Assembly (NCBI RefSeq): GCF_019665765.1
Contig: NZ_CP081150.1
Coordinates: 682,001-746,000, forward strand
Direction: 5' to 3'
From: Deefgea tanakiae
Lineage (GTDB): Bacteria > Pseudomonadota > Gammaproteobacteria > Burkholderiales > Chitinibacteraceae
DNA: 64,000 nt
The notes beneath the pieces are model-generated. The model was not told where the DNA came from, searched no databases, and worked only from the letters and a program-made list of their open reading frames with translations. The translations under genes were made by a program, and so were the position numbers. Shown here in pieces: positions 297 to 45,318 of the stretch; position 1 is the stretch's first letter, and each line of letters starts with the position of its first letter.

Positions 297-310
297 TTTT
301 TTGATTTGCA

Positions 311-342
311 AGAAAAAACCCGCTTTCAGCGGGTTTTTTCTT
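311..342 (+). terminator. Rho-independent terminator after the SDR gene
   Basis: A perfect hairpin (AACCCGCT-TTC-AGCGGGTT) is followed by a T-rich run. Flanking A and T tracts make it usable on both strands, so it may also serve the L,D-transpeptidase gene that converges on it. Confidence 0.85.
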
Positions 343-392
343 GGGTATTTGTTTATACGCACTATTTAAATTAACGTTCAAAGATATACCCT

Positions 393-1670: not shown

Positions 1671-1678
1671 GTATTTTA

Positions 1679-2809
1679 TTAACCACCAATCCGTTCTTCA
1701 AGAATCAACCAGCGGCTTCCAGATTTTTGTAGTACCAATGTTTTAACCGTACTACTAGACAGGCGATCTGATTTGTAATTTTGACGTAGTTTCACTTTGG
1801 CAGTGTCATCATCAATGAAGTCAACGTTGAGTACATTGACTTTCACATCAATAGATTTTGGCCCTGAAATTTTTAACTGACGATCTTTTTCCCATGCGCT
1901 ACGGCCACCGGGGGCTTTAAAGCCTTTGGCATAACTACCCACATAGCCAGCCACATTTTGTTTGCTCCACGCATTAGCCCAACTTTGAACGCTCGCGGTG
2001 ACTTGCTGGCGATCAGTGTTGCGCTCATCCACTTTGGGGGCTGATGTTGCAATCGGACTTGGTTTTGGCGCTTCCGTGGCCACAACAGGCTTGGCTGTAG
2101 CGAGCTTCGGCGCTTCAGTTGCAATCGGTTTGGTAGTCGTTGCCACTTTGCTGGTCGTAGTGGTTGCAGGGAGTAATGGCTTGGGCAAAATTAGAACGGG
2201 GGGGGTCGTTGCTTTAGCGGTAATTGCAGCCGTTACTGCCGGGGCCGTAGGAACTACTTTAGCTGGCTTAGCTGGCGCTACTGCCGCAGCCACTTTAATC
2301 GGAGCCTGATTGGGATTAAATAAAGTGCTAACAGATTTTAATTTTGTTTGAACTTGAGGATTATTGTTTTCAAGTTGCAACGCTTTGTCGTAGGCTTGTG
2401 AGGCTAGGCGTGCATACAAATCACCCATGTTCTCGTGTGCGATGGCATAGCTTGGATTAGTTTGAATCGCCATTTGTAAGGCTGCACGCGCTTTATCAAA
2501 TTGATTGTTGTTGGCGTATAGCACCGCTAAATTATTGTAAGGTTCTGGTAGATGTGGATAGTCTTCGGAAAGCTTAGTAAAGGCTTTAATTGCTTCATCA
2601 TTGCGGCCTGCCTCAGTGAGGGCAATAGCGCGTAAAAACCGAACTTGTGCGTCTTTTGGCGATTTAGTTAGAAAACTATCAGCTCGTTCAACCGCTTGTT
2701 GGTATTGTTTTGCTCGTATTAATTGCTGAATATCTTCAGCTTCACCAGCATAGGCCGCTATGGAAAGCGCAGAGAAAAGTGCGGTGAGAACAAAGCGGGT
2801 TACGAGCAT
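1679..2809 (-). CDS. TPR-repeat periplasmic protein with C-terminal NTF2-like domain
   Basis: 376 residues: a cleavable signal peptide (ending about AYA-GE), tetratricopeptide repeats over residues ~25-155, a long Ala/Pro/Lys/Thr-rich linker (~170-260), and a C-terminal domain of about 110 residues resembling the tail of the downstream L,D-transpeptidase (both contain W..W and R.NYKSD-type segments). It is the first gene of a two-gene unit. The shared tail suggests that the two proteins act at the same cell-wall site. The linker is low-complexity and likely spans periplasmic space. No enzymatic motif is visible. Confidence 0.75.
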   Translation of the reverse strand: MLVTRFVLTALFSALSIAAYAGEAEDIQQLIRAKQYQQAVERADSFLTKSPKDAQVRFLRAIALTEAGRNDEAIKAFTKLSEDYPHLPEPYNNLAVLYANNNQFDKARAALQMAIQTNPSYAIAHENMGDLYARLASQAYDKALQLENNNPQVQTKLKSVSTLFNPNQAPIKVAAAVAPAKPAKVVPTAPAVTAAITAKATTPPVLILPKPLLPATTTTSKVATTTKPIATEAPKLATAKPVVATEAPKPSPIATSAPKVDERNTDRQQVTASVQSWANAWSKQNVAGYVGSYAKGFKAPGGRSAWEKDRQLKISGPKSIDVKVNVLNVDFIDDDTAKVKLRQNYKSDRLSSSTVKTLVLQKSGSRWLILEERIGG

Positions 2810-2998
2810 TATGATTCCAAGCGATAAGAGGGGCGCAATTTAACTGACGCAATTCTAGCAAAATTTTAGGGATTTGACCCTGATGAACTGAGTTGCAGCA
2901 GCGTTGTGTATTTGTATATTAAATTTAAGTTGGTGTATTGGCATGCAAGTATTGGTAATAAAGGCATGCATGGCGATACCTAACGTTTTATTATTGTG

Positions 2999-3583
2999 CT
3001 ATCGATTGGATTTGCGCCAATCCCATGGTGCGGTTGGATTGTTGTCTTTCCATAAGCCTGTACGTTGGGATTTAGCGTTTGCTTGAGCTTGTTCATACTG
3101 TTGAAACTCACCTCTGCTTTGTGTTTTCTTGGCATATGTTGCGTAATGCCATGCAAATCCAGCGTCCACTTGTGCTAAATTAATATCTTGCTCGGCTTTG
3201 CTGATTCGAGCCACGCCACGTCCGTAGCGATCAACATCGTCAATGTGTGCAACGACATTTTGTTCAAAAACTAAATCAGACAAATTGCTTTTAGACGCTT
3301 GCCCAAAGGGCATGGCTTTTTCGGGTGCATCAATATACGCCAGGCGTAATTTGTATTGCTTTTTATCAGCATCAAGGACTGTTACGGTGTCGCCGTCGGC
3401 CACGCCGACCACACGACCTTCAATTTGACTTCCCTTTGTGAGTTGCCCTGGGCTGACTTGGCCTTGATTCCACCATGTAAAGGCTGCAATCGCTAAAACG
3501 ATAATCGCCGATATACGCGCAGGCCATGAGCGGGCGGTGAATAAACTGATTAAGGCGCGTTGTTGTTTTTGGCTAATTCTCAT
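2999..3583 (-). CDS. Thermonuclease (SNase-like) family protein
   Basis: 194 residues with an N-terminal membrane segment (about residues 25-40, IIVLAIAAFTWW) followed by a staphylococcal-nuclease fold. The VVGVADGDTVTVLD, LRLAYIDAPEK and VDRYGRGVARI segments match the calcium-binding Asp residues and catalytic Arg/Glu of the family. The protein is likely an exported or membrane-tethered nuclease. Its ATG overlaps the stop of the upstream hpnC-like gene by 4 nt (ATGA), implying translational coupling with an unrelated function. Confidence 0.85.
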   Translation of the reverse strand: MRISQKQQRALISLFTARSWPARISAIIVLAIAAFTWWNQGQVSPGQLTKGSQIEGRVVGVADGDTVTVLDADKKQYKLRLAYIDAPEKAMPFGQASKSNLSDLVFEQNVVAHIDDVDRYGRGVARISKAEQDINLAQVDAGFAWHYATYAKKTQSRGEFQQYEQAQANAKSQRTGLWKDNNPTAPWDWRKSNR

Positions 3584-4428
3584 ACTTTCTTAGTGATTCC
3601 TGCTTTTAATGCGTGCCATAAAATGGCGGGCCAATCGCTACGGGTTAAAGTGGGACGTGCATTAAACACATCGTATTCAGCCTGCTTGATTTTAGTTATG
3701 ACTCGATCTGCCGCTAAAACGATAGTGCGAATTTCTAAACCAATGCGTCCTGGTAGTTGCACGCCTAGTGGTGAACCTGCCCGCAGCATGCGGCGGGTTC
3801 GGTCGCATTGAAAAGACATCAGTTGTTTAAATGCGGGTGTTGCAATTGCTCGGTCTATATCGACTTCGGTAATTGAAAAACGTTCCATGTCGTCGAGTGG
3901 TAAATATACACGGTCTTTTTTCCAATCGATGGCGACGTCTTGCCAAAAGTTAACCAACTGCAATGCCGAGCAAATTCCGTCAGAAAGTGCCATTTGCCGT
4001 GCATCGGTTTGACCAAAAATGTGCAACAAAATACGCCCAACCGGATTCGCAGAGCGGCGGCAATAATCCATGACTTCACCAAAGTTTTGATACCGAGTTT
4101 TAACAACGTCTTGGCGAAATGCGGAAAACAAATCTTCAAATAAGGCGAGTGGGATTTGGTATTGGATCACGACTAGCGATAGTGCTTGGAATCGTGCCGT
4201 GAGCGGGGTTTCACCACGTTCAATGCGCTGTAGTTCGGCACTGCACTCGTTTAATGCAATCAGTCGCTCTGTGGCACTCGCATCGCCTTCATCAGCCAAA
4301 TCGTCAGCATAGCGCGCAACATGGTAGACCACGGCAATCGCGGGGCGAAATGGCTTGGGGAGTAAGAAGGAGCCGACCGGAAAATTTTCATAATGTTCAA
4401 CAGTCTGTTGTGGTGTGATGCCCTTCAT
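3580..4428 (-). CDS. hpnC: Squalene/phytoene synthase family protein, HpnC-like
   Basis: 282 residues. Both Asp-rich prenyl-diphosphate sites are present: YADDLADEGD near residue 45 and NFWQDVAIDWKKDR near residue 165. The N-terminal HYENFPVGSFLLP pattern is typical of HpnC, which with HpnD and HpnE makes squalene for hopanoids (HpnC converts presqualene diphosphate to hydroxysqualene). The start has an AAGGA Shine-Dalgarno site. No hpnD, hpnE or shc gene lies in the window, and the only partner is a nuclease gene, so the pathway cannot be confirmed here. HpnD or another presqualene synthase is the main alternative. Confidence 0.75.
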   Translation of the reverse strand: MKGITPQQTVEHYENFPVGSFLLPKPFRPAIAVVYHVARYADDLADEGDASATERLIALNECSAELQRIERGETPLTARFQALSLVVIQYQIPLALFEDLFSAFRQDVVKTRYQNFGEVMDYCRRSANPVGRILLHIFGQTDARQMALSDGICSALQLVNFWQDVAIDWKKDRVYLPLDDMERFSITEVDIDRAIATPAFKQLMSFQCDRTRRMLRAGSPLGVQLPGRIGLEIRTIVLAADRVITKIKQAEYDVFNARPTLTRSDWPAILWHALKAGITKKV

Positions 4429-7125: not shown

Positions 7126-7263
7126 CCCAATTACCACTGGAGATACACGAAGCATCAGCTTGCGAAACGCATCATGCGGGATTGGGCTGCGGTGCGCGTT
7201 GATGCGCATCAAGAATTTAGCCTACAGACAAAATAATGGTATTAATACAAGTCGAGAGGGGAG

Positions 7264-7361
7264 GTGGCGAGCCTGACCCCCGGCACTAGCATCAAAAGCT
7301 GTGGCTGCTTCCTTCCGGACCTGACCAAGTTCACCTTCTAGCTATGCGGGGAGGCCCGCCG
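7264..7361 (-). ncRNA. ffs: Small signal recognition particle RNA (4.5S RNA)
   Basis: Minus-strand bases 7326-7303 read GGTCAGGTCCGGAAGGAAGC plus AGCC, the invariant tip of the bacterial SRP RNA (helix 8 with its GGAA loop and symmetric internal loop). The ends GGCGGGCCTCCCCGCA and TGCCGGGGGTCAGGCTCGCC pair to form the rod, giving a length near 98 nt. The RNA binds Ffh and targets ribosomes making membrane proteins. Confidence 0.95.
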
Positions 7362-30880: not shown

Positions 30881-30904
30881 TTCAACCTTAAATTGAATGA
30901 AACC

Positions 30905-32107
30905 ATGCTCACTGATACCAAAATTCGCAGCCTCAAGCCACAAGACAAAATCTACAAGGTCAATGACCGCGACGGTCTTTATGTGGCGGTCACACCAGCA
31001 GGATCAATCTCGTTTCGTTACAACTATTCAATCAATGGCCGACAGGAAACCATCACCTTCGGACGCTATGGTGTTGGGGGGATCACATTGGCAGAAGCTC
31101 GCGAGCAGTTGGGCGAGGCGAAGAAGCTAGTTGCAGCAGGTAAGTCGCCAGCCAAAGAAAAAGCACGAAGCAAAGCCCGAGTCAAAGATGCTGAGACATT
31201 CGGTGCATGGGCGGAAAAATGGCTGCGTGGCTATCAGATGGCCGATTCCACCCGCGATATGCGCCGGGCTGTTTATGAGCGTGAGCTAAAGCCAAAGTTT
31301 GGCAATCAGAAGCTGGCAGAAATCACCCACGAGGATTTGCGGGCGTTGACTGATTCTATTGTTGAGCGTGGTGCTCCAGCTACGGCGGTGCATGTGCGCG
31401 AATTGGTTATGCAGGTGTTTAGGTGGGCAGTCGAGCGCGGACAGAAGGTAGAAAATCCAGCTGATTTAGTGCGGCCAAGCGCGATAGCGACATTTGAGCC
31501 ACGCGACCGGGCATTAACTCCCGATGAAATCGGCTTGATGTATCAATACATCGAGCGCATCGGTACAGCGCCATCTATCCGGGCTGCGGCCAAGCTGCTG
31601 TTGCTAACGATGGTGAGGAAAAGCGAACTGACGAATGCAACGTGGAGTGAGATTAATTTTAGTGAAGCGCTTTGGACGATTCCCAAAGAGAGAATGAAAC
31701 GGCGCAACCCGCATCTGGTTTTTTTGCCCCGGCAGGCATTGGATATTTTCATTGCACTGAAAATTTTCGCTGGTGGCTCTGATTATATTCTGCCATCGCG
31801 TTATGACTCAGATTCACCAATGAGTAGCGCAACACTGAATCAGGTGCTAACGCTGACGTATAAACTGGCGCAGAAGGAGGGCAAGCCGCTTGCCAAATTC
31901 GGCCCGCATGATCTGCGGAGAACCGCCAGTACCCTGTTGCATGAAGCGGGGTACAACACGGACTGGATCGAGAAAGCGCTAGCGCATGAACAGCGAGGTG
32001 TGAGAGCGGTTTACAACAAGGCCGAGTACCGGGAACAGCGCACGGCCATGTTGCAGGATTGGGCGAACATGATTGACGAGTGGACGATTAAGCGGCCACA
32101 ACTATAG
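30905..32107 (+). CDS. Tyrosine integrase, P4 type (DUF4102 N-terminus)
   Basis: I take the ATG at 30905 (MLTDTKIRSLKP, the usual family start); a TTG four codons earlier also fits. 400 residues: N-terminal DUF4102 arm-binding domain (1-90), SAM-like core-binding domain (95-180), catalytic domain with Arg238 (TMVRKSEL), His335-x-x-Arg338 (HDLRRT), His361 and Tyr370 (VRAVYNKAEY). It should catalyse integration at the guaA core site. Its 3' end overlaps the convergent alpA-like gene by 20 nt. Confidence 0.95.
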   Translation: MLTDTKIRSLKPQDKIYKVNDRDGLYVAVTPAGSISFRYNYSINGRQETITFGRYGVGGITLAEAREQLGEAKKLVAAGKSPAKEKARSKARVKDAETFGAWAEKWLRGYQMADSTRDMRRAVYERELKPKFGNQKLAEITHEDLRALTDSIVERGAPATAVHVRELVMQVFRWAVERGQKVENPADLVRPSAIATFEPRDRALTPDEIGLMYQYIERIGTAPSIRAAAKLLLLTMVRKSELTNATWSEINFSEALWTIPKERMKRRNPHLVFLPRQALDIFIALKIFAGGSDYILPSRYDSDSPMSSATLNQVLTLTYKLAQKEGKPLAKFGPHDLRRTASTLLHEAGYNTDWIEKALAHEQRGVRAVYNKAEYREQRTAMLQDWANMIDEWTIKRPQL

Positions 32108-32318
32108 GAACAAAGCACGGGCGCAGAGGATGAGCGCCCGATAATTTACGCTCTGCGATCCAGCTTTCGATCTCGGCCAAATCCCATGCCACATTCCGGC
32201 TGGTGAGCGCTATACGGCGTGGAAATTCCCCACGCTGTTCCATGTTAAAAATCGTGCGCTCGGATAGTGGAATAATTTCCAGTAGCCGCTTGCGGTTGAT
32301 GAGTTTATTTATTGCCAT
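32088..32318 (-). CDS. AlpA family phage regulator / excisionase-like
   Basis: 76 residues: LINRKRLLEIIPLSERTIFNMEQRGEFPRRIALTSRNVAWDLAEIESWIAERK is a winged MerR-like HTH typical of AlpA proteins, which control integrase expression or act as excisionases. Position next to the integrase supports that role. Confidence 0.85.
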   Translation of the reverse strand: MAINKLINRKRLLEIIPLSERTIFNMEQRGEFPRRIALTSRNVAWDLAEIESWIAERKLSGAHPLRPCFVPIVVAA

Positions 32319-32817: not shown

Positions 32818-34065
32818 TCAAACTCGATCAACTTGTAGCAGCACAAGAATTTCGGTTTGGTTCAGGTCTTTGCCTTCGCCAAGTGGCAGGCTAAAAAATG
32901 GCAGGTGTGATTTTTCGGTAGTGGATTTGGCGCTGGTTAAGCCGCCGATCACATACACTTCACCGGACTTGGCCAGCAGGTTTGTTTTGATTTCGCGCTT
33001 AATCAGCGTGGGCGATGCACTAACGCCAGTTTTGGTTGCCGCAAAGTTTGAGATTTGCTGGGTAATTGCCAAATCAACAATTTCATCGCGGATATTCGGC
33101 GCAACATCGAGAATGACCCCTGATGATTTGTATTCAACGGATTGAATGGGGTTGCCGTTCTTATCTAGCACGGCAGCGCCTAGCACAGGCACATCATCGC
33201 CTGACATAAAGCGTGCCGCCGCAGCGTCTTTCACACGCACATGTGGCCGCGAAATGACTTTGAAGCGGGTATCGGTTGATACCAGTGATGCCACTAAATC
33301 CAAGCTGCCCGTTGCTAGTGTCATGACATTGCCAGTGGCCGCTGCAGGCGACATACCCAGCGATACTCTCAGCTTGCCATCAAACAACTTGAGCAATGCA
33401 CCTACGCCCCATGAGTCGGTGTCTGTCGTCGAGAACTCATAAACCACCGCTGAAATCTGCACCTGTGCTTCTGGCAAATCGATTTGCTGGATCAGGCCGC
33501 GCAATTGGCTGACTTCTTGTGCGGGGCCGCTAAAGATTAATAGATCGTGATGCTTATTGATTTGCGAATAAGCCGAGCTGCCACCGTCCTGAATTGGTGC
33601 TTGACCCGGTATGGCCGTAGTTGATGCTTGCACTGCTCGCTGAAAGGTAAATCGACCTTTCTGAAAAAGACTGGATAACAAGTCAGAAAAATAAGTGATG
33701 TCGCGAAATTTTGGGCGATACACAAATATTTCATTCGGTTCAGCAGGAGTGGCCGCTTTAGTGCTCAAGCGCAAATAATCCGTGCCATTCTGAGTTTCGA
33801 CCCCAAGACCAGACATGGCCAACACACTGAGGAACAAGGCGCGGTATTGTTTCGGTTCTTTCGCATCAAACGAGACCGTCACTTTGTCGGCAATTTGCTG
33901 CGCTTTGGGATCAATGACGAAATTCTTGTGTTCAATTTCGGTGTAATACAGCTTGGCCAACTCAAGGACTGGCAGCGCATCAAAGAACAGGCGTGACTTA
34001 GGCGGCTGATCTGTAGCCAGCGCCATTGATGTGAAAAACAGTAAAATCAATGCAAGGCGTTTCAT
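32818..34065 (-). CDS. Secretin (pIV-like, type II/III secretion family)
   Basis: 415 residues: signal peptide (LALILLFFTSMALA), N-domains, and a secretin C-domain with VISRPHVRVKDAAAARFMSGDDVPV, the SSGVILDVAPNI strand and GEVYVIGGLTSAK, the secretin signature. It should form the outer-membrane pore for filamentous phage export. Many inoviruses borrow host secretins; this one carries its own. Its ATG overlaps the Zot gene stop by 4 nt. Confidence 0.92.
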   Translation of the reverse strand: MKRLALILLFFTSMALATDQPPKSRLFFDALPVLELAKLYYTEIEHKNFVIDPKAQQIADKVTVSFDAKEPKQYRALFLSVLAMSGLGVETQNGTDYLRLSTKAATPAEPNEIFVYRPKFRDITYFSDLLSSLFQKGRFTFQRAVQASTTAIPGQAPIQDGGSSAYSQINKHHDLLIFSGPAQEVSQLRGLIQQIDLPEAQVQISAVVYEFSTTDTDSWGVGALLKLFDGKLRVSLGMSPAAATGNVMTLATGSLDLVASLVSTDTRFKVISRPHVRVKDAAAARFMSGDDVPVLGAAVLDKNGNPIQSVEYKSSGVILDVAPNIRDEIVDLAITQQISNFAATKTGVSASPTLIKREIKTNLLAKSGEVYVIGGLTSAKSTTEKSHLPFFSLPLGEGKDLNQTEILVLLQVDRV

Positions 34066-35141
34066 TGCTTGGACTCCGTGGCAATCGGCAATGCCGCGCC
34101 AAATGGCGTTGTTTCAAGTTCGCTCCCCGACCAAAAGGCAACCATTTCACCATCGACATAGCCCGATGTAGTCAGGCCATCAATGGCAAAGCTGGTCGCT
34201 TTTATCATCCGAAAATGTTTCCCATCGTGCAGGCTGACCAGCAACGTGCCATCTGGCTTTTGCAAATATCCGTTCAAGCGCCAGCGTGACATACCTTCGG
34301 GCTGACTTTGCGCTTTACCGCCGCTGTTTTGATTTTGCTGAGTCGCAGTAGGCAATGCCTTCGCTGAGTCCTTCGCCCCCGGTGTTACAGGTTCCGGGTG
34401 AAAGAATTTCCACATGTTGTAAAAGCCAACGGCGAAAACAATGATCGTGCCGATGACCAAAGCCCACAGACGCCAATCTTTGAGCAGGTTTTGGCGATCA
34501 TCAATTTGATGTTCTTTCCCTGTTCCTCCGGTGTATGACGAATACAGCGGAAAAATGGCTTTGTCGTATTTTTTGGGGAAGGTGTTCACCCGGGTTTTAG
34601 CGTTGAGCTTGTAACCCTCATAGACCTCGACTCGGTAGGCTTTGCTCAAGCCGAGTGATTTGAGCTTGACGGTTCGAAAGGTCATTTCAACGACAACGCG
34701 CAAAATGCGATGCAGGTCGGTAATGTCTTGAACCATCAGCACCAAGTCACAGCAAACCTTGGTGACCGGGCTGACGTAATGCCGATGCTCGCGGAAAAAT
34801 ATCTTATGCTCTTGGGCGATCTTGCAATCGCAGCCCCAAAAGCGCCAAGCCTCGTCAATACAAACTAAATCGCCCGGCTGCACCGTCGTTTCGGCCTCTG
34901 TTCCGTGGCAGAAAAATTCCGGGCTTGATACCGTGTCATTCGAAACGTGAACAACATGGCCCAGTTTTTCCAGTTCATCGCCGTGCTTGTCATGCAGGTA
35001 AGCGCGGATTGCATCGCTATCAATATCGGCCACGTTGGTAATCACGCGCCGACCTCGGCGAACAGCCTCAAGAATAACGCTACTCACGCATTCATAAGAT
35101 TTACCCGACCCCATTAGGCCAGTGTATGCATTAATTGGCAT
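34062..35141 (-). CDS. Zot-domain (pI-like) phage assembly ATPase
   Basis: 359 residues: Walker A GLMGSGKSYE at residues ~9-16, Walker B DLVCIDEAWRFW near 93-100, and one TM helix (LWALVIGTIIVFAVGF) near 235, after which the chain is periplasmic. This is the inovirus hallmark pI/Zot protein that drives virion extrusion through the inner membrane. The Zot name does not imply toxicity here. Three nt separate it from the upstream DUF2523 gene. Confidence 0.94.
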   Translation of the reverse strand: MPINAYTGLMGSGKSYECVSSVILEAVRRGRRVITNVADIDSDAIRAYLHDKHGDELEKLGHVVHVSNDTVSSPEFFCHGTEAETTVQPGDLVCIDEAWRFWGCDCKIAQEHKIFFREHRHYVSPVTKVCCDLVLMVQDITDLHRILRVVVEMTFRTVKLKSLGLSKAYRVEVYEGYKLNAKTRVNTFPKKYDKAIFPLYSSYTGGTGKEHQIDDRQNLLKDWRLWALVIGTIIVFAVGFYNMWKFFHPEPVTPGAKDSAKALPTATQQNQNSGGKAQSQPEGMSRWRLNGYLQKPDGTLLVSLHDGKHFRMIKATSFAIDGLTTSGYVDGEMVAFWSGSELETTPFGAALPIATESKQ

Positions 35142-35144
35142 GGC

Positions 35145-35432
35145 TTACCCAATGACCGGAATACGACGAATTAGAAAGCGAGTGACATAGGCAGCGATCA
35201 CCATCTGAATGCCAGCGGCAATTTCAAACGCATCCAGATACCACCACACTGTTGGCGCTACACCGCCAAATGCAGAATTCAGCCCATCAACACCGGGTAG
35301 CAAATCAATCAAGTTTTCGGCCATCAGTTGCACCAGATAAAACACCGCGAACGCGACGACGAACTTCACAATCAGCGTGCGAAAAACCCAACCAATCACG
35401 GCATTGAATGCCGAAAGCAAAATACCAAACAT
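35145..35432 (-). CDS. DUF2523 family minor coat protein (pVI-like)
   Basis: 95 residues, three hydrophobic segments and the FEIAAGIQMVIAAYVTRFLIRRIP end typical of DUF2523 proteins, which lie between the adhesin and Zot genes in many filamentous phages and are thought to be virion end proteins. Confidence 0.85.
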   Translation of the reverse strand: MFGILLSAFNAVIGWVFRTLIVKFVVAFAVFYLVQLMAENLIDLLPGVDGLNSAFGGVAPTVWWYLDAFEIAAGIQMVIAAYVTRFLIRRIPVIG

Positions 35433-35440
35433 GATTTACC

Positions 35441-36898
35441 TCATGCCGCCAAGACGATGAAAAGAGCAGCCAAAGCCCACATCAACAGTGCTGCCGATGA
35501 CATCACTTCTTTGTGCTGCTCGAACAGTTGGCAGTGCGCGTCAAATGCACCTGAAAATGGGTGGCCCATCAGCGAAAAATTGAACTCGCCAGTCGGGCAT
35601 TGAGCGCTATGACTCGGTACTTGAAATCCTTTTAATGGCTCAAGTGCATCATTGATTGGCGCAAAAATTTCTTTGCCTGTGGGCGTTTGTTCCAGTTCTG
35701 GTGATCCGATGACTGGATCAGGCCCCAAATCAATTTTTGTTGCACCCGCAGGCGGATTAATGGGCTGCGTGCCGGGATTCGTTACGGCTGTCACGGGTGG
35801 AATCGGTAGTTGCGGTGTTGATTTAGGATTAATCGCTGGCGATACAAAATCGCGCACTTTTGGATATGAATTGGGGTTCTTTACGCGCCAGTCTTCAACA
35901 TCACCTTCGGTAATCGGATCCGCTGCGTCATAAGGCAAACCACGATAATCAGGTTGTAATGCCGCATTACGCCAAAGCGCATTGGCTGCTGCCGCCAACT
36001 GCTGCGGATGAACTTGAGTGTCTAATGCAGCTTCCGGCAATCTGCTGATTGCGTCAGCCGGGGTGAGTCCTGTGCCAGTACCGGGAATTGCAGGGAGAGG
36101 TTTAAAATCATAAGCAACACATTCTTTATCACGTAACCACTTTCCCTTTGGACAAGCGGTGTGCGCGGGAGGGCTAGCAACGTACTCGACGGTCAAGCTA
36201 GATGCTGTCGTTAATTCATCACCCGTTTGGCTTGGCTGGCGATACACGGCATTAAAGGCGCATTTGTAGATGATGTTGCTTGTTTTGGTGCAAGAGACAT
36301 CGCGGTAACCTTTGTATGCAGCGTTATTTTCTGGTGAAAACCGAATTGAAATTGCTTGTTGGCCAACGGCTTCTGGATCAGCACCAATGACCGCAGGACC
36401 GACTTGCGTATATGCGCGCCAGTATGGGCCATTCAAGGGCAAGCCTGTTGAATTGTCGATTGGCACAAACTCAGTCATTGAACCAACTTCAATCGTGCCA
36501 TCAGGTTTCCAAAACCATGAAATAACTTTGTCGATTAAAAATGGGAGTGCAACGCTAGCAACCACTGAAATTCCTGCTGCAGCCAAAATCACAGGCCATG
36601 TTGCCCCGGCAACAACCCCGCCAGCAATGGTCACTACTGCTGCACTTACACCATTCACTGTTGCGCCATAACGCGGATCATTAGCGGCCACATAGTTGTA
36701 ATTTGGATCGTTCGCTGCACGCCCCGGGGTGATACGCTTGGCCGCTTTTTGAGCGACCAACTCACCAACTGCCCGCCCCATATTGGGGTTATATGCAGGA
36801 ACGGCAGCAGCCATAACCCGGATGCTCAATATCAGTAGCAATAAAACCAGCGTCAAATTCTTCACGATTGAAATCCACGGATAAAAGACCAGCCGCAT
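35441..36898 (-). CDS. TspB-like phage attachment protein (pIII position)
   Basis: The ATG at 36898 starts a signal peptide (LTLVLLLLILSIRVMAA); an in-frame ATG at 36931 exists. About 485 residues: N-terminal region with a glycine/alanine-rich hydrophobic stretch (about 100-130), a Cys-bearing domain (SCTKTSN, YKCAFN, HTACPKGKWLRDKECVAYDF), a Pro-rich linker, and a C-terminal membrane anchor (ALLMWALAALFIVLAA). Position and layout match pIII/TspB of Neisseria-type filamentous phages, which bind the host pilus or surface ligand. Confidence 0.82.
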   Translation of the reverse strand: MRLVFYPWISIVKNLTLVLLLLILSIRVMAAAVPAYNPNMGRAVGELVAQKAAKRITPGRAANDPNYNYVAANDPRYGATVNGVSAAVVTIAGGVVAGATWPVILAAAGISVVASVALPFLIDKVISWFWKPDGTIEVGSMTEFVPIDNSTGLPLNGPYWRAYTQVGPAVIGADPEAVGQQAISIRFSPENNAAYKGYRDVSCTKTSNIIYKCAFNAVYRQPSQTGDELTTASSLTVEYVASPPAHTACPKGKWLRDKECVAYDFKPLPAIPGTGTGLTPADAISRLPEAALDTQVHPQQLAAAANALWRNAALQPDYRGLPYDAADPITEGDVEDWRVKNPNSYPKVRDFVSPAINPKSTPQLPIPPVTAVTNPGTQPINPPAGATKIDLGPDPVIGSPELEQTPTGKEIFAPINDALEPLKGFQVPSHSAQCPTGEFNFSLMGHPFSGAFDAHCQLFEQHKEVMSSAALLMWALAALFIVLAA

Positions 36899-36977
36899 AA
36901 CGCACCAAGACAAAACATTGCTAGATACCAAAACTCTGCAGCCATAACGCCCCCAATTAGTCCAACCCGCTTTCTAT

Positions 36978-37024
36978 TGGGAAAATGACTTCTCCCAAGA
37001 GGAAACGGGCGGGAAAACCCGCCC
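36978..37024 (-). terminator. Hairpins after the major coat gene (partial terminator)
   Basis: GGGCGGG-AAAA-CCCGCCC (37007-37024) and TTGGGA...TCTCCCAA (36978-36999) follow the coat protein stop on the minus strand. There is no strong T tract. Such a leaky terminator is typical after the highly expressed coat gene of filamentous phages. Confidence 0.6.
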
Positions 37025-37033
37025 AAACTTCGA

Positions 37034-37255
37034 TTAGGCGCCTTTCACTTTTTTCAAAATGAATTCAGCAGCTTTAATAGCCAAATACACGCCAAGAATG
37101 ACGGCAGACACGGAAAGCAAACCTGTTTTCACATCATCGAAATTCACAGCTGCAACAAGGCCGTTTACATCAGTAATCGGCGCTGCGGCCGCGAAAGCGC
37201 CTGCAGATGCAAAAGTAGTAGCGGAAACCGCTGCAATTTTTTTCATCAAGTTCAT
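37034..37255 (-). CDS. Major coat protein (pVIII-like)
   Basis: 73 residues from MNLMKKIAA (37255), where AGGAG is 7 nt upstream; an ATG two codons earlier is too close to it. A signal peptide (to about AFAAA) is followed by a short amphipathic region with acidic residues, one TM helix (LLSVSAVILGVYLAIKAAEFI) and a basic end KKVKGA that would face the DNA. This is the classic filamentous phage coat plan. Confidence 0.9.
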   Translation of the reverse strand: MNLMKKIAAVSATTFASAGAFAAAAPITDVNGLVAAVNFDDVKTGLLSVSAVILGVYLAIKAAEFILKKVKGA

Positions 37256-37290
37256 GGTCATACTCCTAGTTAAAAACGGGAAAGCGCCCG

Positions 37291-37554
37291 TTACGCTCTT
37301 TTCACTAAATTGACGATGGAACCCATCGCAATTCCGAGAAGCCATACCGCCAGCACCGTGCAAAGGCCAAATGAAAAATATTGGCCTGCCGTTGCTGCTG
37401 AAAATGCTTGATTTGCAGTCTCAAAGTGAGCTGCATTTGCTGGATCAATCACATAAGCCTGCACAACCTTCGTGGTTTGCCCTGCAGGACAGGGAACACG
37501 AGTCGGCATACCCGGCATGCACACGATCACATTGACTACTTGCCCGAGTGCCAT
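37291..37554 (-). CDS. Phage membrane protein, likely minor coat protein
   Basis: 87 residues, with Cys-containing N-terminal half (IVCMPGMPTRVPCPAG) and one TM segment (FSFGLCTVLAVWLLGIAMGSIV). Located between rep (2 nt) and the major coat gene (35 nt). Position fits pVII/pIX-type minor coat proteins; no specific family recognised. Confidence 0.72.
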   Translation of the reverse strand: MALGQVVNVIVCMPGMPTRVPCPAGQTTKVVQAYVIDPANAAHFETANQAFSAATAGQYFSFGLCTVLAVWLLGIAMGSIVNLVKRA

Positions 37555-37556
37555 GC

Positions 37557-39296
37557 TTATCCCCCAAGCCGTAAAGGTGGACTGGAATTACGCCGATTAG
37601 ATTTAGAATCGCATGATTGCAGTGGCACTAATAACGGCTGTTTTTTTTCAGATGCATCGAAATGAAGCAGAGGAGAAAGAGATTGCTGCCCTAATGAATC
37701 GACCTGATTTTCTAATCTACAGTTATTTAAAATATTCCGAGGAAGGTCAAAACCCTTAAAAACCAATTCCCATTCACGTTCTCGAGTAATAATCGTACTC
37801 CCTGAGTTTGTATCAATAAGCCCTTTGATTTTTTGTACTGGCTCACGATACCGATTCAGTCCCGCATCCCGCTTTAATAAGACCTTTCGATCTAATTTCA
37901 TTAAATGGGTGAACTCTGCCCAATCACCACGATCTGCTGCATCTGCTGCCGCAGAGAATTCATCATTAGTCAGGCCATCAATTCTTCTTAGTTCTCGCCA
38001 AATACCAACCGGTGCTGAACCAATAAACTGGAATTGGCGAATGCCCCAGCAGCTAGCCCACGCTTTTACTCGTGTCGCAGAGCTAACAACATCAAGGCCG
38101 GAATCAAAGTCTTTATCAATAAGACCTTGTGAATCAAACATTCCTTGCCCATTCATGTTTTTACATAGATATTTAATTAAATAGCCTGCAGCACTGCCTT
38201 TGTGATAATCAATATCTTTAACATTGAAACGGTGTTTCCATGCCATTGGTTCGTATTTATCCATTTTCCGAAAATACTTGCGAAATAAACGGACAACTAA
38301 GCCACGTTGTTTTCGAGGTACGAATATAAGTAAATGCCAGTGTGGACATGCATTGCCATGCGGTTCTGCAACACGCATACCAAATAGATCAATACCATAA
38401 TCAGAAAAAGCAGCTCGTAAAAGGACCCAGACAGCGCATAGATAGTCGTTGGCATCTCTCGGATTAGATCCATCAAAGTTTGGATTATTAAATGAATAAG
38501 CGCCTGTTTTATCTAGCTTTTGCGCGTGAAATTTTGAAGGACATGTAACAGTAATAAACAAACCTACATACCCTAAACTAGAGCCTATTCCCTCTAATCC
38601 AATTAAACGGCACATAGTTTCAGCTAGTTTTCTCTCGTTATTTGCAACAAAATCAGCTAACGTTACTTCATTACCAAGATCATTTATTACAACAGCATTT
38701 TGAAGCATTTCTTCATTTCGCTGATTGCGTGCTTGGAAACGTTTTACTTGTTCATTAGATACATAACATTCAGAAAATTTATTAATAATTCCGTTGAGGA
38801 TGTGCTCGTGCTCTAATGCTCTTTCTTGATTAGATGATAATTTCCGTTTCCAAAATTTTTCATTTTTTAATCGTAAAGCTGACCCTTCAATATGTTTTGA
38901 TTTAACTGTTGCTGAATATTTCTCTAAAGCATAATTAATAAGAAGTGCTGATGATTCTTCTTCTGAATTTCCGAAATTTCGCTGCATTCCACAATACTGC
39001 GTCATTTCATTAGCACGAGCTTTGGCCAGCTTCTGCAGATCGTCATAGTCAGCTGCTAAATCAGGGGCAAATGGGGTTTGTTTCCACTTAGTTGCTTGCT
39101 GCCGCAACCAAGTGTTTGCAAAACGGAGCCCCGCAGCATCATTACCTCGTAACGCTTGCCATTTTTGACGCAATATTTGATGAAGCGAGGTATGAATTTT
39201 CGCCAAAATGCCATCAACAAATGCCAATTCACTCGCGATTTGGCGCTGGCGGACCGCCTCAGGACTAAATGACAGGTTTAGGCTGCGGGACTTCAT
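37557..39296 (-). CDS. Replication initiation endonuclease (phage gpA-type HUH)
   Basis: 579 residues. LGYVGLFITVTCPSKFHAQ (motif I) and CPHWHLLIFVP (the H-x-H metal motif II) lie mid-protein, followed by YHKGSAAGYLIKYLCKN with the candidate catalytic Tyr. This is the pattern of phage replication gene A-type rolling-circle initiators. It should nick the phage origin. It has a much lower GC content than the structural genes. Confidence 0.88.
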   Translation of the reverse strand: MKSRSLNLSFSPEAVRQRQIASELAFVDGILAKIHTSLHQILRQKWQALRGNDAAGLRFANTWLRQQATKWKQTPFAPDLAADYDDLQKLAKARANEMTQYCGMQRNFGNSEEESSALLINYALEKYSATVKSKHIEGSALRLKNEKFWKRKLSSNQERALEHEHILNGIINKFSECYVSNEQVKRFQARNQRNEEMLQNAVVINDLGNEVTLADFVANNERKLAETMCRLIGLEGIGSSLGYVGLFITVTCPSKFHAQKLDKTGAYSFNNPNFDGSNPRDANDYLCAVWVLLRAAFSDYGIDLFGMRVAEPHGNACPHWHLLIFVPRKQRGLVVRLFRKYFRKMDKYEPMAWKHRFNVKDIDYHKGSAAGYLIKYLCKNMNGQGMFDSQGLIDKDFDSGLDVVSSATRVKAWASCWGIRQFQFIGSAPVGIWRELRRIDGLTNDEFSAAADAADRGDWAEFTHLMKLDRKVLLKRDAGLNRYREPVQKIKGLIDTNSGSTIITREREWELVFKGFDLPRNILNNCRLENQVDSLGQQSLSPLLHFDASEKKQPLLVPLQSCDSKSNRRNSSPPLRLGG

Positions 39297-39301
39297 GGCG
39301 A

Positions 39302-39619
39302 TTAATCTTCGATCGCAGAATAGACATTCACAACAGGTTTGCGAGTTACTTTTTCTCCCGTTTCTTTGTCTAAATATTGGAAACTTTTTGCGCGATACCC
39401 ACCGCAGCTAACAAGAATTTCAACGGTATCGCCGGATTGGCCAAGACGTTTTTTTGAGCGAACTTCAACAGAGTGTGGTGGGGTGTATTGATCAACGGCA
39501 GGTAGTGTAATTTCAGAATAGGTGTACTCATCAGCGCGACGCACAGAATTTACGCGGCCAAAGAGCAAGGCTTGGTTTGGTTTCAGTGATAACTTTTGAT
39601 TTTCTTGGGCAGTGCTCAT
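39302..39619 (-). CDS. Probable phage single-stranded DNA-binding protein
   Basis: The start at 39619 (MSTAQENQKLSL) has GGATCAC upstream; 105 residues, mostly beta, with VRSKKRLGQSGDTVEILVSCGGYRAKSF resembling an OB-type fold. Directly upstream of rep (5 nt). In filamentous phages this position holds the pV-type protein that coats ssDNA before packaging. Similarity is by position and fold pattern. Confidence 0.68.
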   Translation of the reverse strand: MSTAQENQKLSLKPNQALLFGRVNSVRRADEYTYSEITLPAVDQYTPPHSVEVRSKKRLGQSGDTVEILVSCGGYRAKSFQYLDKETGEKVTRKPVVNVYSAIED

Positions 39620-39803
39620 TTTTGTGATCCTTGTAAAAATATTGGGGCTACGTTTGTGATTCAGATTTCCTGTGTTCATCGCTTCGCATTGCCGTCCGTC
39701 CTCGCAGGCTGCGGGCGGGGCGGCAAGCCAACACGCGCTGAACAGGAGAATTGCTTATAAAACTGTCCAGATGGGTTAACATTACGCATAATTGGAATGC
39801 ATG

Positions 39804-39853
39804 ATCACGATAAACTGTGATTATGTATCACGTATATTGTGATAAATGTTCAC
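39804..39853. promoter_or_regulatory. Operator array between the phage early genes and the divergent regulator
   Basis: Alternating half-sites: ATCAC 39804-39808, GTGAT 39817-39821, ATCAC 39827-39831, GTGAT 39839-39843, TTCAC 39849-39853. They form palindromes ATCAC-n8-GTGAT and ATCAC-n7-GTGAT. The array lies in the divergent promoter region, so it is the likely binding site of the regulator at 39890 (inference). Confidence 0.65.
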
Positions 39854-39889
39854 GATTGTGTCAAAGAAAATTTGTGGGGGAGTTTGAGA

Positions 39890-40579
39890 ATGTCAACCAT
39901 AGAGCAGAGGTTAAATTCAGTAATTGCATATAAAACAAAGGCGTATGGTCGATTTTCGGTTCTCGAAAATGACACAGGTGTAGGGTCGGATACATGGAAA
40001 GCGTGCTGGCATGGCCGTCAAAGAGCGACATCACAGATGATTGAACAAGTTGCCCGGTTTTGGCCTCAATATGCTTTTTGGGTTGCGACAGGGATTACAG
40101 ATCCAGACCGTGGACATGTCGCTCCGCCCACTTCAGAAGTGTTTTTTCCAATTATTAGAGGTAAAGAAATAATCGAGGCAACTGATTATTTTAAATATCT
40201 AATAAAGTTAGATAATGAAGAAGGTACGGATGAGGATAAAAAGATAAGGACACTAGAACGAGAAACAGCTTTTGCTAGCATTGAAAATGCAATTGGTGAA
40301 AATAAAGCACTGTCAACAATTAACAAGCCAATAGAAAATTTGGAAGAAGCAGCTAGAAAAGATTTATATGAGTTATTTATCGATCAGGATTTTAAAGATA
40401 AATTAAAAGTAAGGAATAAGATAGAAGCTAAAGTTCAGGCTGAATTTATTAAGTGGGCCGACAACATCAAAGTGCACATAAAAATTGTAAGTGCAATTAT
40501 GAATATTCCGGGAATTCCTAAGAGGTTCAAAAAAAGCGTAGTTGAGAAATATGCCGATAGTGCGAAAGACGATAAATAG
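39890..40579 (+). CDS. Putative phage repressor / transcriptional regulator
   Basis: The ATG at 39890 has GGGGGAG upstream; an alternative ATG at 39839 lies inside the operator array. 229 residues. The N-terminal ~70 (MSTIEQRLNSVIAYK ... WKACWHGRQRATSQMIEQVARFWPQYAFWVATG) look like an HTH domain seen in regulators of betaproteobacterial filamentous phages; the rest is charged, helical and Lys/Glu-rich. Divergent from the replication genes, the usual place of the immunity repressor. Role inferred. Confidence 0.68.
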   Translation: MSTIEQRLNSVIAYKTKAYGRFSVLENDTGVGSDTWKACWHGRQRATSQMIEQVARFWPQYAFWVATGITDPDRGHVAPPTSEVFFPIIRGKEIIEATDYFKYLIKLDNEEGTDEDKKIRTLERETAFASIENAIGENKALSTINKPIENLEEAARKDLYELFIDQDFKDKLKVRNKIEAKVQAEFIKWADNIKVHIKIVSAIMNIPGIPKRFKKSVVEKYADSAKDDK

Positions 40580-42222: not shown

Positions 42223-43173
42223 TTAACCTCTTGTTTTGTGAATGAAGAAATCAATAGTCGTTGCCCCGTATTTCTTCTTGAGTTTGTATAGATATGGTTT
42301 GTCAACGGCATTTATATAATTTAAAAGACTGCCTAAATTTAATATACTCTTCTCCAATTCATTTTCTGATATTTTTTTGAATTTTTCTTTGTCAGTTCTG
42401 TAATGGTGCAAAAGAATCTCTGTCTTGTTTTTTATTTTTGAATCTACTGTTAACTCCCCGTTCGGCATTATAACCATGCCTAGTATTTTTACTTGTTCAC
42501 CGATGCTTTTGATCTTGCTTTTTTTTGTATTTATATGAAACGCATTACCGGATGTTTTGAGTAATGTTTCTTCTGTAATTTTTTCAATGTCATCAAGTAG
42601 ATTAAGGCTGTTTGCAGAAAAAATAATGTCATCAGAGTACCGGGAGTATTTAATGTCGTTTAATGTGCAGTGTTGTTTTATTATTTTGTCAAAATCAAAG
42701 AGGACTGAATTGCTTATTGGTGGTGATGTAGAGAATCCGATTGGTAGCTTTCCATCGATTAGAATTAAATTTTTAACTTGCATTGCATATTTTTCAATGT
42801 CAGATACTGGAATGGAACTTAAGCTTATTTTTAATGAATGGTCTATGTGTTGTTCGTTGATGCAACTGAAGAAGTCAATAATGTCAGACTGGTAAAAGTA
42901 CTTTCCCTTTGCGTGTATTTTTACGGCATCAACTACATTGTGACCCTTTCTGTAGGAGAATACCACTTCTTCATTTATGCGAAGGTATTCAAATACAAAT
43001 AGATTTAAGAATTTATGGAAGTCTTTGAGCTTCTTTGTTGTAGAGTAAACTATTCTGTTGTTGTGTTGAATAATTGTATATTCATCTATGGTATTTAAAT
43101 TTATAAACTCTGAAAATTTATATTTGCCATGGAACATTGAATTAAATGCAGACTCAAGGTCTGGTTTTTTCAT
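42223..43173 (-). CDS. Reverse transcriptase, retron-like
   Basis: 316 residues, the usual retron RT size. RT motifs in order: DIIDFFSCI (98-105, first catalytic Asp), LPIGFSTSPPISN (143-155), RYSDDIIFS (YSDD 179-182), then KILGMVIMPNGELTV in the position of the retron VTG motif. Upstream, VVDAVKIH stands where retron RTs have NAxxH. An AAAGGGG site precedes the ATG. AT-rich. It is translationally coupled to the ATPase/TOPRIM gene and preceded by 770 nt without a gene that contain strong hairpins. Retron type I-B is the best fit; another abortive-infection RT class is possible because the signature motifs deviate. Confidence 0.85.
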   Translation of the reverse strand: MKKPDLESAFNSMFHGKYKFSEFINLNTIDEYTIIQHNNRIVYSTTKKLKDFHKFLNLFVFEYLRINEEVVFSYRKGHNVVDAVKIHAKGKYFYQSDIIDFFSCINEQHIDHSLKISLSSIPVSDIEKYAMQVKNLILIDGKLPIGFSTSPPISNSVLFDFDKIIKQHCTLNDIKYSRYSDDIIFSANSLNLLDDIEKITEETLLKTSGNAFHINTKKSKIKSIGEQVKILGMVIMPNGELTVDSKIKNKTEILLHHYRTDKEKFKKISENELEKSILNLGSLLNYINAVDKPYLYKLKKKYGATTIDFFIHKTRG

Positions 43174-43223
43174 ATTAATGGCCCCTTTATGATTTTGTTG
43201 TACTCAAACTTGTCTTGAATTTA

Positions 43224-43300
43224 TTTTCAAATGATTGCTTAAAGTTTTGAAAAGGTCTACCTATTATCTAATTATGCATCATTGGATAAGGATACGGTAG
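43224..43300 (-). other. Two hairpins just upstream of the RT gene
   Basis: TTTTCAAA (43224-43231) pairs with TTTGAAAA (43246-43253); CTACC/GGTAG plus TTATC/GATAA pair between 43257 and 43300. They lie 51-127 nt before the RT start, the classical place for a retron msr-msd RNA or its 3' part. No convincing a1/a2 pair was found by eye. Confidence 0.4.
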
Positions 43301-43320
43301 CAGTCTTGGGCAGTAGTTGT

Positions 43321-43500
43321 GCAATAGATGGACTTTTTTACATAACCTCACGTGGGCGAGTTTCCCCTTTCCTCTGACGGTTTAGGCCATAGCAGGTACT
43401 GTTTTGGGCGTGCCCATAGCGGTGAAACGATTCAGCAACACGGCCCAATAGATGCTGTGTTCCACACAATTTAATCAGCAACATGCAGGATGTTGAAAAT
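43321..43500 (-). other. Possible degenerate insertion remnant upstream of the RT gene
   Basis: Minus-strand frames in this stretch give protein-like fragments (VEHSIYWAVLLNRFTAMGTP in one frame, LNRQRKGETRPREVM ending at a stop in another) and the base composition is more GC-rich than its surroundings. It may be a decayed transposase end. I cannot name a family. Confidence 0.25.
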
Positions 43501-43685
43501 GAACTTATTTGAGTGAATCTAAGAAAGAGGGCAGGATGATGTCATTCTCAATAGAGGAAAAATGCAAAACATGTTGATTCAATTTATGCTGAAATGTTAT
43601 GGAGACTTACAAAATCAGTGGGTCAGTTGAGGATTTGGCGTTAAGTGAAAAAACAGTATAGAAAGTTTTAGCTTGGCATGCTCAT

Positions 43686-43704
43686 TAGTTTGCTAAGCAA
43701 ACTA
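43686..43704. other. Perfect short hairpin
   Basis: TAGTTTGC-TAA-GCAAACTA; no T tract. Part of the structured non-coding region upstream of the RT gene. Confidence 0.5.
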
Positions 43705-43770
43705 GTCTCAGCAGAAACGTTTTTTCGGGAGTTGTAGCTAGGAATTTGATAGGGGAAGTGGCATTGAGTT

Positions 43771-43893
43771 TTTACGTATCTGGTGTGTGTTACCAGTGAT
43801 GAAAGATCATTGATAACACACACCTGACGTAAACTAACTATAGCGCAGTAGAGGCCAAGACTAACGACTGGAGATGCTCCTAGTCCTTGGCAT
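43771..43893 (-). ncRNA. Candidate structured RNA (msr-msd-like) upstream of the RT
   Basis: Directly downstream of a consensus promoter. Stem-loop 1 (43891-43854): GCCAAG-ACTA pairs with TAGT-CTTGGC around one bulged G, enclosing GGAG-CAT-CTCC. Stem-loop 2 (43833-43771): about 25 bp, TTTACGT/ACGTAAA, an internal loop, GGTGTGTGTTA/TAACACACACC, then CAgTGAT/ATCAtTG with a 5-nt loop. A short stem-loop followed by one long hairpin is the plan of retron msr and msd. Against this: it ends ~600 nt from the RT start and I found no a1/a2 complement. It could instead be an RNA tied to the HEPN gene. Confidence 0.45.
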
Positions 43894-43899
43894 AGTGCA

Positions 43900-43928
43900 A
43901 TAATAGAAAGTCTTGTCGTAAATGTCAA
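43900..43928 (-). promoter_or_regulatory. Consensus sigma-70 promoter
   Basis: TTGACA (43928-43923), a 17-nt spacer, and TATTAT (43905-43900). It begins 17 nt after the HEPN gene stop and points at the structured region and the RT operon, so it is the obvious promoter for a non-coding RNA here. Confidence 0.7.
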
Positions 43929-43944: not shown

Positions 43945-44931
43945 TCAACTCCGCCCAGCATACTCTGGTTCTTCGGAGTTCCTATGTGGCTCCATCTCAG
44001 CTTCAACCAACTTCAAAGCCATTACATATGCCTCACCAGCAGCCTTGTAGATCTGTGTCTCGCGCTCCTCTTCGCCCTTGAATGGCTCATTGATTTCACC
44101 CAAATGGACCAGCTTTGAACGGTAGTTATACAGTTCGTTAAAAGCCTCCGCCTGATTCTTGCCGAGTTTCTGACGAACAAATTTTCTACATGACTTTCCG
44201 ATGGAGTATTTTTTACATCCTCCCACAGCAAGTGCCAAGGACTCTTTTTGGTCCTTACTCAGCGACGACTCTTGAATTTTCTGCACGAGTTCATCGACAA
44301 CCTCTTGCTCTTCATTGCTTCTGCGTCCTCCCGATCCCGCCAGCATTTCAATCACTGTCATGGAAAGGATTAACCGCACCATGCTTGAATATTCAAAGTG
44401 AATTGCACCTAGCATGTCGATGACCGATAACATCGGGGATGCGACATGGTAACCTGCGTAGTATTTCGCGATTCCTGAAGAAAACTTTGAATAATCAACG
44501 CTCTCGAATTCATGGGAAGGTTCTGGGTCCCACACTATCATGCTTGCAGGGTATGCTCGGCGGGATGCGAGTTGCTTAAAAATGAAACCTTTAAGAATAT
44601 AGTTGTGTTCCATTTCTCTCAGCACAACATTGAGGGGATACTCGTCATGCCCACTATTGGCAGTACAAATGCCGAAATGCTGCTCCAGCGCAGCCAGCTT
44701 CATCGCCTGCTCGAGCTTGAGCATCTCGAGACTTGCGGCGCGGTAGGTATCGAATCCTTCGCCCTCTATCGCTAACTGGTTGGACTGGGAGATTAAAGCT
44801 CCCGTGGTCGAGGCAGTGAGGAAAATATCCCTGCCATCAAAAATTCGAACCTTCTCCTGATCCACATTAATGTTGCTACCAGAAAGCTTGAACGAGATCC
44901 GGAAGTTGAATGTTTTTGCCTCACTCTGCAT
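43945..44931 (-). CDS. HEPN-domain (Apea-like) protein
   Basis: 328 residues, soluble. The C-terminal third is helical and carries LYNYRSKLVHLGE, an R-x4-H motif (Arg271, His276) in the context usual for Apea-like HEPN RNases. The N-terminal two thirds are mixed alpha/beta and unrecognised. HEPN proteins of this type act as RNases in defence or toxin systems. No antitoxin-like partner is clear: upstream 340 nt to attR hold no solid gene. The position as last gene before attR marks it as cargo. Confidence 0.65.
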   Translation of the reverse strand: MQSEAKTFNFRISFKLSGSNINVDQEKVRIFDGRDIFLTASTTGALISQSNQLAIEGEGFDTYRAASLEMLKLEQAMKLAALEQHFGICTANSGHDEYPLNVVLREMEHNYILKGFIFKQLASRRAYPASMIVWDPEPSHEFESVDYSKFSSGIAKYYAGYHVASPMLSVIDMLGAIHFEYSSMVRLILSMTVIEMLAGSGGRRSNEEQEVVDELVQKIQESSLSKDQKESLALAVGGCKKYSIGKSCRKFVRQKLGKNQAEAFNELYNYRSKLVHLGEINEPFKGEEERETQIYKAAGEAYVMALKLVEAEMEPHRNSEEPEYAGRS

Positions 44932-45275
44932 ACTGCTTCTACTCCTGTTTTAGTGCGAACGACGTTCTCTTTCGTAACAATAGCATCTGCATAACGGATC
45001 TTAGTAAATTTGCATCCATCTTCTGGCTCATTTCCCAATAGTCCAGCGTTGTATTTGATTATGAGTGATGCGAAGAGTTCTCGAGCAGCATAGGGAGCGC
45101 TTCTCTGTGTGGGTCGCAATCTCGCCGAATGCGGATTGCGTACCATGCGACTAGAGCTTAGTGGTTTACAGTCGTGTAACAATATAGCCGCTGAACATGG
45201 CATTTTTCATGGCATCGAGTTCAGTTTACTTTGCAAGCTTTTGTGAAATAAAGGCTCCTTCTGCTTGTTGATGAC
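44932..45275. other. Region between the HEPN gene and attR, 344 nt
   Basis: No well-supported gene. A minus-strand frame (to 45203) overlaps the HEPN 5' end and has an Arg/Ser-rich, partly protein-like product, but no ribosome site or family support. It presumably contains the HEPN promoter and the right arm of the attachment site. Confidence 0.4.
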
Positions 45276-45286
45276 TGAGTGGGAAT
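45276..45286 (+). other. Right attachment site (attR core)
   Basis: TGAGTGGGAAT, identical to the core inside guaA; with the next bases it reads GAG TGG GAA TAA, the expected original guaA ending. Confidence 0.75.
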
Positions 45287-45318
45287 AATATCGAAGTGAC
45301 TGCTTCCTAGTGAGATTC

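Follow-up and report, generated by a model that had tools for sequence, protein, structure and literature searches.

The classification of retrons reportedly goes back to Mestre 2020. Two kinds of type I-B retron differ in gene order, the OLD gene being downstream of the reverse transcriptase (RT) gene in type I-B1 (class 3B) and upstream of it in type I-B2 (class 3A), for example Retron-Eco8 (PMC10568477, in the part available). For Eco8, the accessible parts of PMC12887533 and PMC13158370 describe a phage single-stranded DNA-binding protein (SSB) that disturbs the DNA and releases the nuclease. Type I-B1 is a recognised but little-studied kind of retron. A "RetronI-B" annotated in P. aeruginosa PAO1 is listed without study in the accessible text of PMC11878078, and in the accessible parts of the literature searched no characterised I-B1 retron and no description of the I-B1 RNA architecture was found; an earlier description is possible, and the architecture may be new. 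The RTs closest by sequence to those of type I-B1 among solved structures belong to the type I-A retrons Ec83 and Ec78, whose effector is the pair PtuA/PtuB and not a single OLD protein.

The locus described here is from Deefgea tanakiae. The window, that is, the whole stretch of DNA that was analysed, comprises 64,000 nt and corresponds to positions 682,001-746,000 of the forward strand of NZ_CP081150.1 (GCF_019665765.1). A preliminary description of this DNA had reported a retron-like module of RT, OLD, and upstream RNA, and this observation was confirmed. At the level of sequence, the promoter, the RNA fold, the RT, and the OLD effector, as well as their linkage and conservation, are established. 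The module has the RT clade, the directly downstream OLD gene, and the conserved upstream hairpin RNA of type I-B1 retrons, and we estimate at roughly 0.8 the probability that it is a type I-B1 retron that serves as an abortive-infection immune module and is cargo of an integrated filamentous phage. Table 1 lists the features of the locus and of the phage.

Table 1. Features of the D. tanakiae retron and its carrier prophage, with positions counted from the first nucleotide of the window.
Feature	Position	Strand	Evidence
att-like repeat, presumed left border, 3' end of guaA	30579-30598	+	17/20 identical to 45270-45289
Tyrosine integrase	30893-32107	+	phrog_1 3.6e-82
AlpA-like excisionase/regulator	32088-32318	-	phrog_2790 2.5e-12
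Filamentous phage core: pIV secretin, Zot-like pI, pVI-like, pIII-like, coat, replication protein, ssDNA-binding protein	32818-39679	-	PHROGs, Pfam Phage_GPA 1.1e-62
Phage ssDNA-binding protein	39302-39679		
Divergent phage transcription regulator	39839-40579	+	phrog_147 1.6e-8
OLD-type ATPase-TOPRIM effector, 443 aa	40889-42220	-	PADLOC ATPase-Toprim_I-B PDLC02914 2.1e-166, structure models
Retron type I-B1 RT, 316 aa	42223-43173	-	PADLOC RT_I-B PDLC02937 4e-115, tree
Spacer between ncRNA and RT, ~590 nt	43174-43765	-	
Whole ncRNA, ~128 nt, presumed ends	43766-43893	-	5' end from promoter, 3' end from hairpin foot
Second, long ncRNA hairpin (msd-like, presumed cDNA template)	43771-43833	-	Fold z-scores
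First ncRNA hairpin (msr-like)	43854-43891	-	Model R1 and compensatory changes
Sigma-70 type promoter of ncRNA, TTGACA-17-TATTAT	43900-43928	-	11/12 consensus positions
att-like repeat, presumed right border	45270-45289	+	

The I-B1 family and its upstream RNA

The family was gathered by profile scans and protein searches, which, own copies excluded, yielded 79 loci whose RT match reaches at least 150 bits. In 76 of these, an OLD match lies downstream of the RT, and for L070, L085, and L125 the record ends at or shortly past the RT. Loci with a weaker RT match have an OLD match after the RT in two cases out of 96 (L094 and L132), both of them cut I-B1 copies. The gap between the RT and OLD genes ranges from -17 to +7 nt across 68 loci. 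One I-B1 retron (L090) is on a contig binned as Streptococcus and has an RT that groups with enterobacterial RTs, pointing to transfer or misbinning. L030 (NZ_OL790811.1, Proteus, 4.08 Mb) is filed as a plasmid; both its size and the genes that flank the retron point to a chromosome.

A conserved element with the consensus start AUGCCAGCGACUAGGAGUAUCUCCAGUC was found upstream of many I-B1 RTs. It stands at the far end of the leader in the window, where the covariance model R1, built from 40 rows including the window itself, matches positions 43835-43894 on the minus strand (64.9 bits, E 3.6e-17). The RNA search covered 78 I-B1 loci and omitted L032 (near-copy of L029, RT annotated in two pieces) as well as L035, L094, and L132 (weaker, broken, or cut). 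R1 matches 74 of the 78, comprising 39 loci that built the model and 35 of the 39 outside it, among which L057, L065, L066, and L067 nearly duplicate rows of the model and L081, L089, and L128 have scores identical to those of sister loci. Among the 79 loci with other RTs that formed the control (L171-L195 not among them), R1 has no match. For L074 (E 0.0019) and L076 (E 0.033), the match is restricted to the inner hairpin, and L082, L088, L090, and L130 gave none, L130 having just 33 nt of upstream sequence. The preliminary description had proposed a covariance model of the leaders as a check on its upstream structured RNA, and the conserved structured leader is present. Rfam has no matching family for the D. 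tanakiae retron ncRNA; for the retron RNA models of PADLOC, see PMC9252829 (accessible part).

The first hairpin consists of an outer stem (GCCAAG/CUUGGC) and an inner stem (GACU.GGAG/CUCC.AGUC). Across 39 distinct sequences, all six pairs of the outer stem have compensatory changes on both sides; 85% of the outer-stem cells pair, and the innermost pair fails in 17 of the 39. For R1, 93.6% of cells pair compared with 87.5% in shuffles of the same 39 distinct sequences, none of 500 shuffles reaching the observed value, and at most 48% pair once the partner strand is slid. The region of the second, long hairpin has a median z-score of -4.3 and a z-score below -2 in 66 of 69 loci, compared with 4/69 for the control, the next 110 nt past the hairpin; the 69-locus sets used for the promoter, the long hairpin, the distance, and the foot omit L074, L076, L081, L089, L118, and L128. 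The window has z-scores of -6.6 for the long-hairpin region and -6.1 for the whole RNA, and the presumed single-stranded DNA copy of its long hairpin also folds (z -6.9). Loci differ in the sequence of the long hairpin but retain its fold, the pattern expected of an msd.

The promoter directly precedes the RNA element, and the consensus promoter that had been claimed for the leader is indeed near-consensus. Among the 69 aligned loci, the T, T, and G of the -35 box at -34 to -32 occur in 57, 53, and 43, and the T, A, and T of the -10 box at -11, -10, and -6 occur in 51, 60, and 62. Because the promoter stands directly before the element and its boxes are conserved, we infer that the RNA starts at 43893.

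Priming, position of the RNA, and spacer

A closing a1/a2 duplex is expected of retron RNAs. Complementarity of at least 8 bp between the 5' part of the RNA and the 3' flank of the long hairpin, a test that misses a shorter or more distant duplex, was found in 2/68 I-B1 loci, which is the chance level (3.8% in shuffles), whereas the same test found it in 11 of 31 sister-type loci, a mixed and uncurated set (4% in shuffles), five of the 11 with the strand GCTCTTTA. Three further placements of a1/a2 in I-B1 gave nothing clear, and the best run in the window is 6 bp. At the foot of the long hairpin, TTAC and GTAA occur together in 34/69 loci compared with 2/69 control stretches, and this foot might replace a1/a2. 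Six loci (L044, L049, L050, L063, L083, and L120) carry the RNA on the strand opposite to the RT, at a distance of 41-186 nt upstream of it, and have both hairpins in their predicted folds as well. The I-B1 RNA is probably its own transcription unit, which would explain the variable distance between RNA and RT.

We tentatively propose that the I-B1 RNA is non-canonical or permuted, in that it would start at the msr-like hairpin, place the msr before the priming duplex, use the foot TTAC/GTAA for a1/a2, and act from a distance or from the opposite strand. With transcription starting at the msr-like hairpin, there would be no a1 strand ahead of that hairpin. The 5' end of such a permuted RNA would pair within the first hairpin, and the RNA would be an independent unit. 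A 2'-5' linked branch G, if the I-B1 RNA has one, is perhaps in GACUAGGAG.

A somewhat unlikely alternative is a non-canonical retron in which the RNA serves for binding or as a guide, or in which the DNA is unbranched or differently primed, with OLD still the effector. It would accord with the chance-level frequency of a terminal a1/a2 duplex in 68 loci, with an RNA that by its promoter starts directly at the first hairpin, with the opposite-strand RNA in six loci, and with the relaxed retron motifs of the RT (see below), but the RT is within the retron clade beside types I-A and II-A, the long hairpin resembles an msd in its free sequence and kept structure, and the conserved foot could act as a short a1/a2. 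The alternative overlaps with the type I-B1 retron reading, which leaves priming open, and the odds given to the readings do not sum to 1. Since an a1/a2 duplex, which the strict definition includes, was not found, its assignment to I-B1 is based on RT, effector, and RNA family, and the locus does not count as a proven producer of msDNA.

The long leader of the window is made up of the ncRNA and a spacer of ~590 nt, and the distance of 721 nt between RNA and RT sets the window apart from other I-B1 loci as the longest in 63 same-strand loci (range 103 to 721 nt, next 516 nt). The preliminary description had read this leader as one sign of a divergent subtype; this reading is partly borne out, the RNA in the leader being ordinary for the clade and its distance from the RT exceptional. 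The spacer is unstructured except for two marginal windows near its upstream (RNA) end (z -1.8 and -2.1), and no second copy of it was found in its own genome and no match among plasmids. Because 721 nt exceeds the other 62 same-strand distances, the D. tanakiae copy could be uncoupled. A decaying or silent copy, with the spacer being foreign DNA that parts the RNA from RT and OLD, would explain this distance and a mostly unstructured spacer that is without relatives where searched, but we consider it improbable, as the RT and OLD frames are open with their catalytic residues kept, the RNA is intact, as are its pairing and promoter, no insertion-element remnant was identified, and the family distances of 103-516 nt, even with inverted RNAs, are as expected of a separate transcription unit.

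Reverse transcriptase, OLD effector, and subtype

The D. tanakiae RT matches PADLOC RT_I-B (PDLC02937) at 382 bits and the other I-B RT model (PDLC02938) at just 108 bits. The effector gene begins 2 nt downstream of the RT gene, with which it makes up a two-gene unit, and its product matches PADLOC ATPase-Toprim_I-B (PDLC02914) at 552 bits and the other I-B effector model (PDLC02915) at only 43 bits, this model being 623 positions long compared with the 443 aa of the window protein. We take PDLC02938 and PDLC02915 to be the Eco8-side models. Residues K38, D209, E210, E293, D351, and D353 of the effector are invariant in 61/61 proteins, and structure models support the predicted OLD/TOPRIM fold. 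The coupled OLD ATPase/TOPRIM protein of the preliminary description was retained, as was its retron RT.

A maximum likelihood tree built from 38 RTs groups the 27 I-B1 rows in a single clade (support 100/100) that adjoins one I-A row and three II-A rows (97/94), with the group II row outside. The tree has long branches and is without Eco8, DRT, or Abi rows, so that it supports the retron placement without testing every alternative; in this tree, which the preliminary description had also suggested as a check, the RT does not fall outside the retrons. When a profile built from 19 I-B1 RTs was compared with PDB, the matches were to I-A type RTs (Ec83, Ec78, and their kin) at 3e-45 to 5e-42, Ec86 at 6e-34, the Eco8 RT at 2e-27, and Drt2 at 6e-10.

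Retron RTs have the motifs NAxxH and VTG. At these positions the window RT has AVKIH and ILG, and in 78 RTs the H and the G are kept throughout (78/78), AVxxH is found in 61 and xLG in 75. The YxDD motif is YSDD in 51/78 and YADD in 27/78 (window included). Since the deviating motifs are clade-wide, they are a trait of the I-B1 clade and not of the D. tanakiae copy, and they no longer speak for the divergent subtype that had been read from them.

The OLD gene downstream of the RT and the PADLOC scores place the locus, by sequence, in subtype I-B1 and not in I-B2, the subtype of Eco8. The kinship with Eco8 that had been suggested was not supported. The two share the effector plan of an ABC ATPase with TOPRIM, a probable nuclease effector, whereas the OLD gene is upstream in Eco8 and downstream in the window, the RT lineages are separate by score, and the Eco8 OLD protein is larger than the compact effector of the window. 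That the locus is nevertheless an Eco8 subtype (I-B2), as the shared domain plan of RT plus OLD ATPase/TOPRIM might suggest, is highly improbable given the gene order, the HMM scores, the ranking of the RT profile matches, and the lengths of effector and model. A defence RT of the DRT/Abi kind, outside the retrons, has the defence-like setting of the RT in its favour and is the least probable reading of all, as the RT scores 161 bits to the NCBIfam St85 retron RT model (below the cut-off of 235) compared with 35 bits to Drt2, and its profile matches retron RTs in PDB at 3e-45 to 2e-27 compared with 6e-10 for Drt2.

Carrier prophage, proposed mechanism, and significance

The prophage that carries the retron is filamentous, measures 14.7 kb, and is flanked by att-like repeats at guaA. 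Its filamentous phage gene set looks complete: the genes for Zot-like pI, coat, replication, and ssDNA binding are clustered, and the pIII-like protein is called by position and matches families of unknown function only. Together with the integrase and the repeats, these genes bear out the filamentous prophage of the preliminary description. Within the same genus, one genome (G003) has an integrase 91% identical, also at guaA, and two others (G001 and G004) have other inserts bordered by a second copy of the guaA site. The guaA site is an integration hotspot in the genus (L219 in G004, L220 in G001, and L221 in G003), and the G004 insert between the two site copies contains an AAA ATPase beside a DUF3226 protein, plus a Fic-like protein. 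Elsewhere in the window, an ordinary small SRP RNA gene (Rfam RF00169) was found at 7263-7360 on the minus strand.

Carriage by a filamentous phage, a further difference from other I-B1 loci, is shared with L125, a viral contig of 7.75 kb that represents a second filamentous phage with an I-B1 retron. Its Zot-like and secretin genes adjoin the RT, and in the part at 1-4250 the ncRNA at 3326-3384 is followed by the RT, which is cut by the contig end. A retron in a filamentous phage has already been published for the Pf phage PfAC01 (PMC11878078, accessible text), and for Vibrio prophages the available part of PMC11630473 lists retrons among the systems of the tailless and filamentous kinds, leaving unstated there which of the two carries them. 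The Vibrio filamentous phage PQ189325 (L034) has a type I-A retron (RT, ATPase, and PtuB) downstream of its assembly genes; the cargo is thus type I-A in PQ189325 and I-B1 in the window, and the other reports state no subtype in the parts available.

A 328-aa ORF (43945-44931, minus strand) lies directly upstream of the retron promoter. It has RSKLVH near its C-terminus, which we take to be a HEPN-like motif. No significant Pfam, PADLOC, or NCBIfam family was found for it, and neither 42 other genomes of the bacterial family, nor plasmids, nor viral contigs (searched by pattern) contained a relative. It may be another defence gene carried by the prophage.

As a type I-B1 retron, the D. tanakiae module would make msDNA and defend against phages. 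The RT would bind the ncRNA and, with the long hairpin as template, make a DNA hairpin that is retained in the complex, and, by analogy with Eco8, the complex of RT, RNA, and DNA would keep the OLD nuclease inactive. An infecting phage that disturbs the DNA, or another trigger, would then release the TOPRIM nuclease, which would cut DNA, and the resulting cell death or growth stop would protect sister lysogens and the prophage. Eco8 has an RT of another lineage and a larger effector, so that the transfer of its mechanism is an analogy and the trigger and the stoichiometry may differ.

The carrier phage encodes its own ssDNA-binding protein alongside the OLD retron. If the module is triggered by a phage SSB like Eco8, a testable question is whether it ignores the protein of its own carrier. 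The RNA was traced through dozens of relatives, and its architecture is worth testing, for which the conserved I-B1 RNA is a ready construct for msDNA isolation. If type I-B1 is truly without a1/a2, the rules of retron cDNA priming, by which retron gene editors are guided as well, would have to be broadened.
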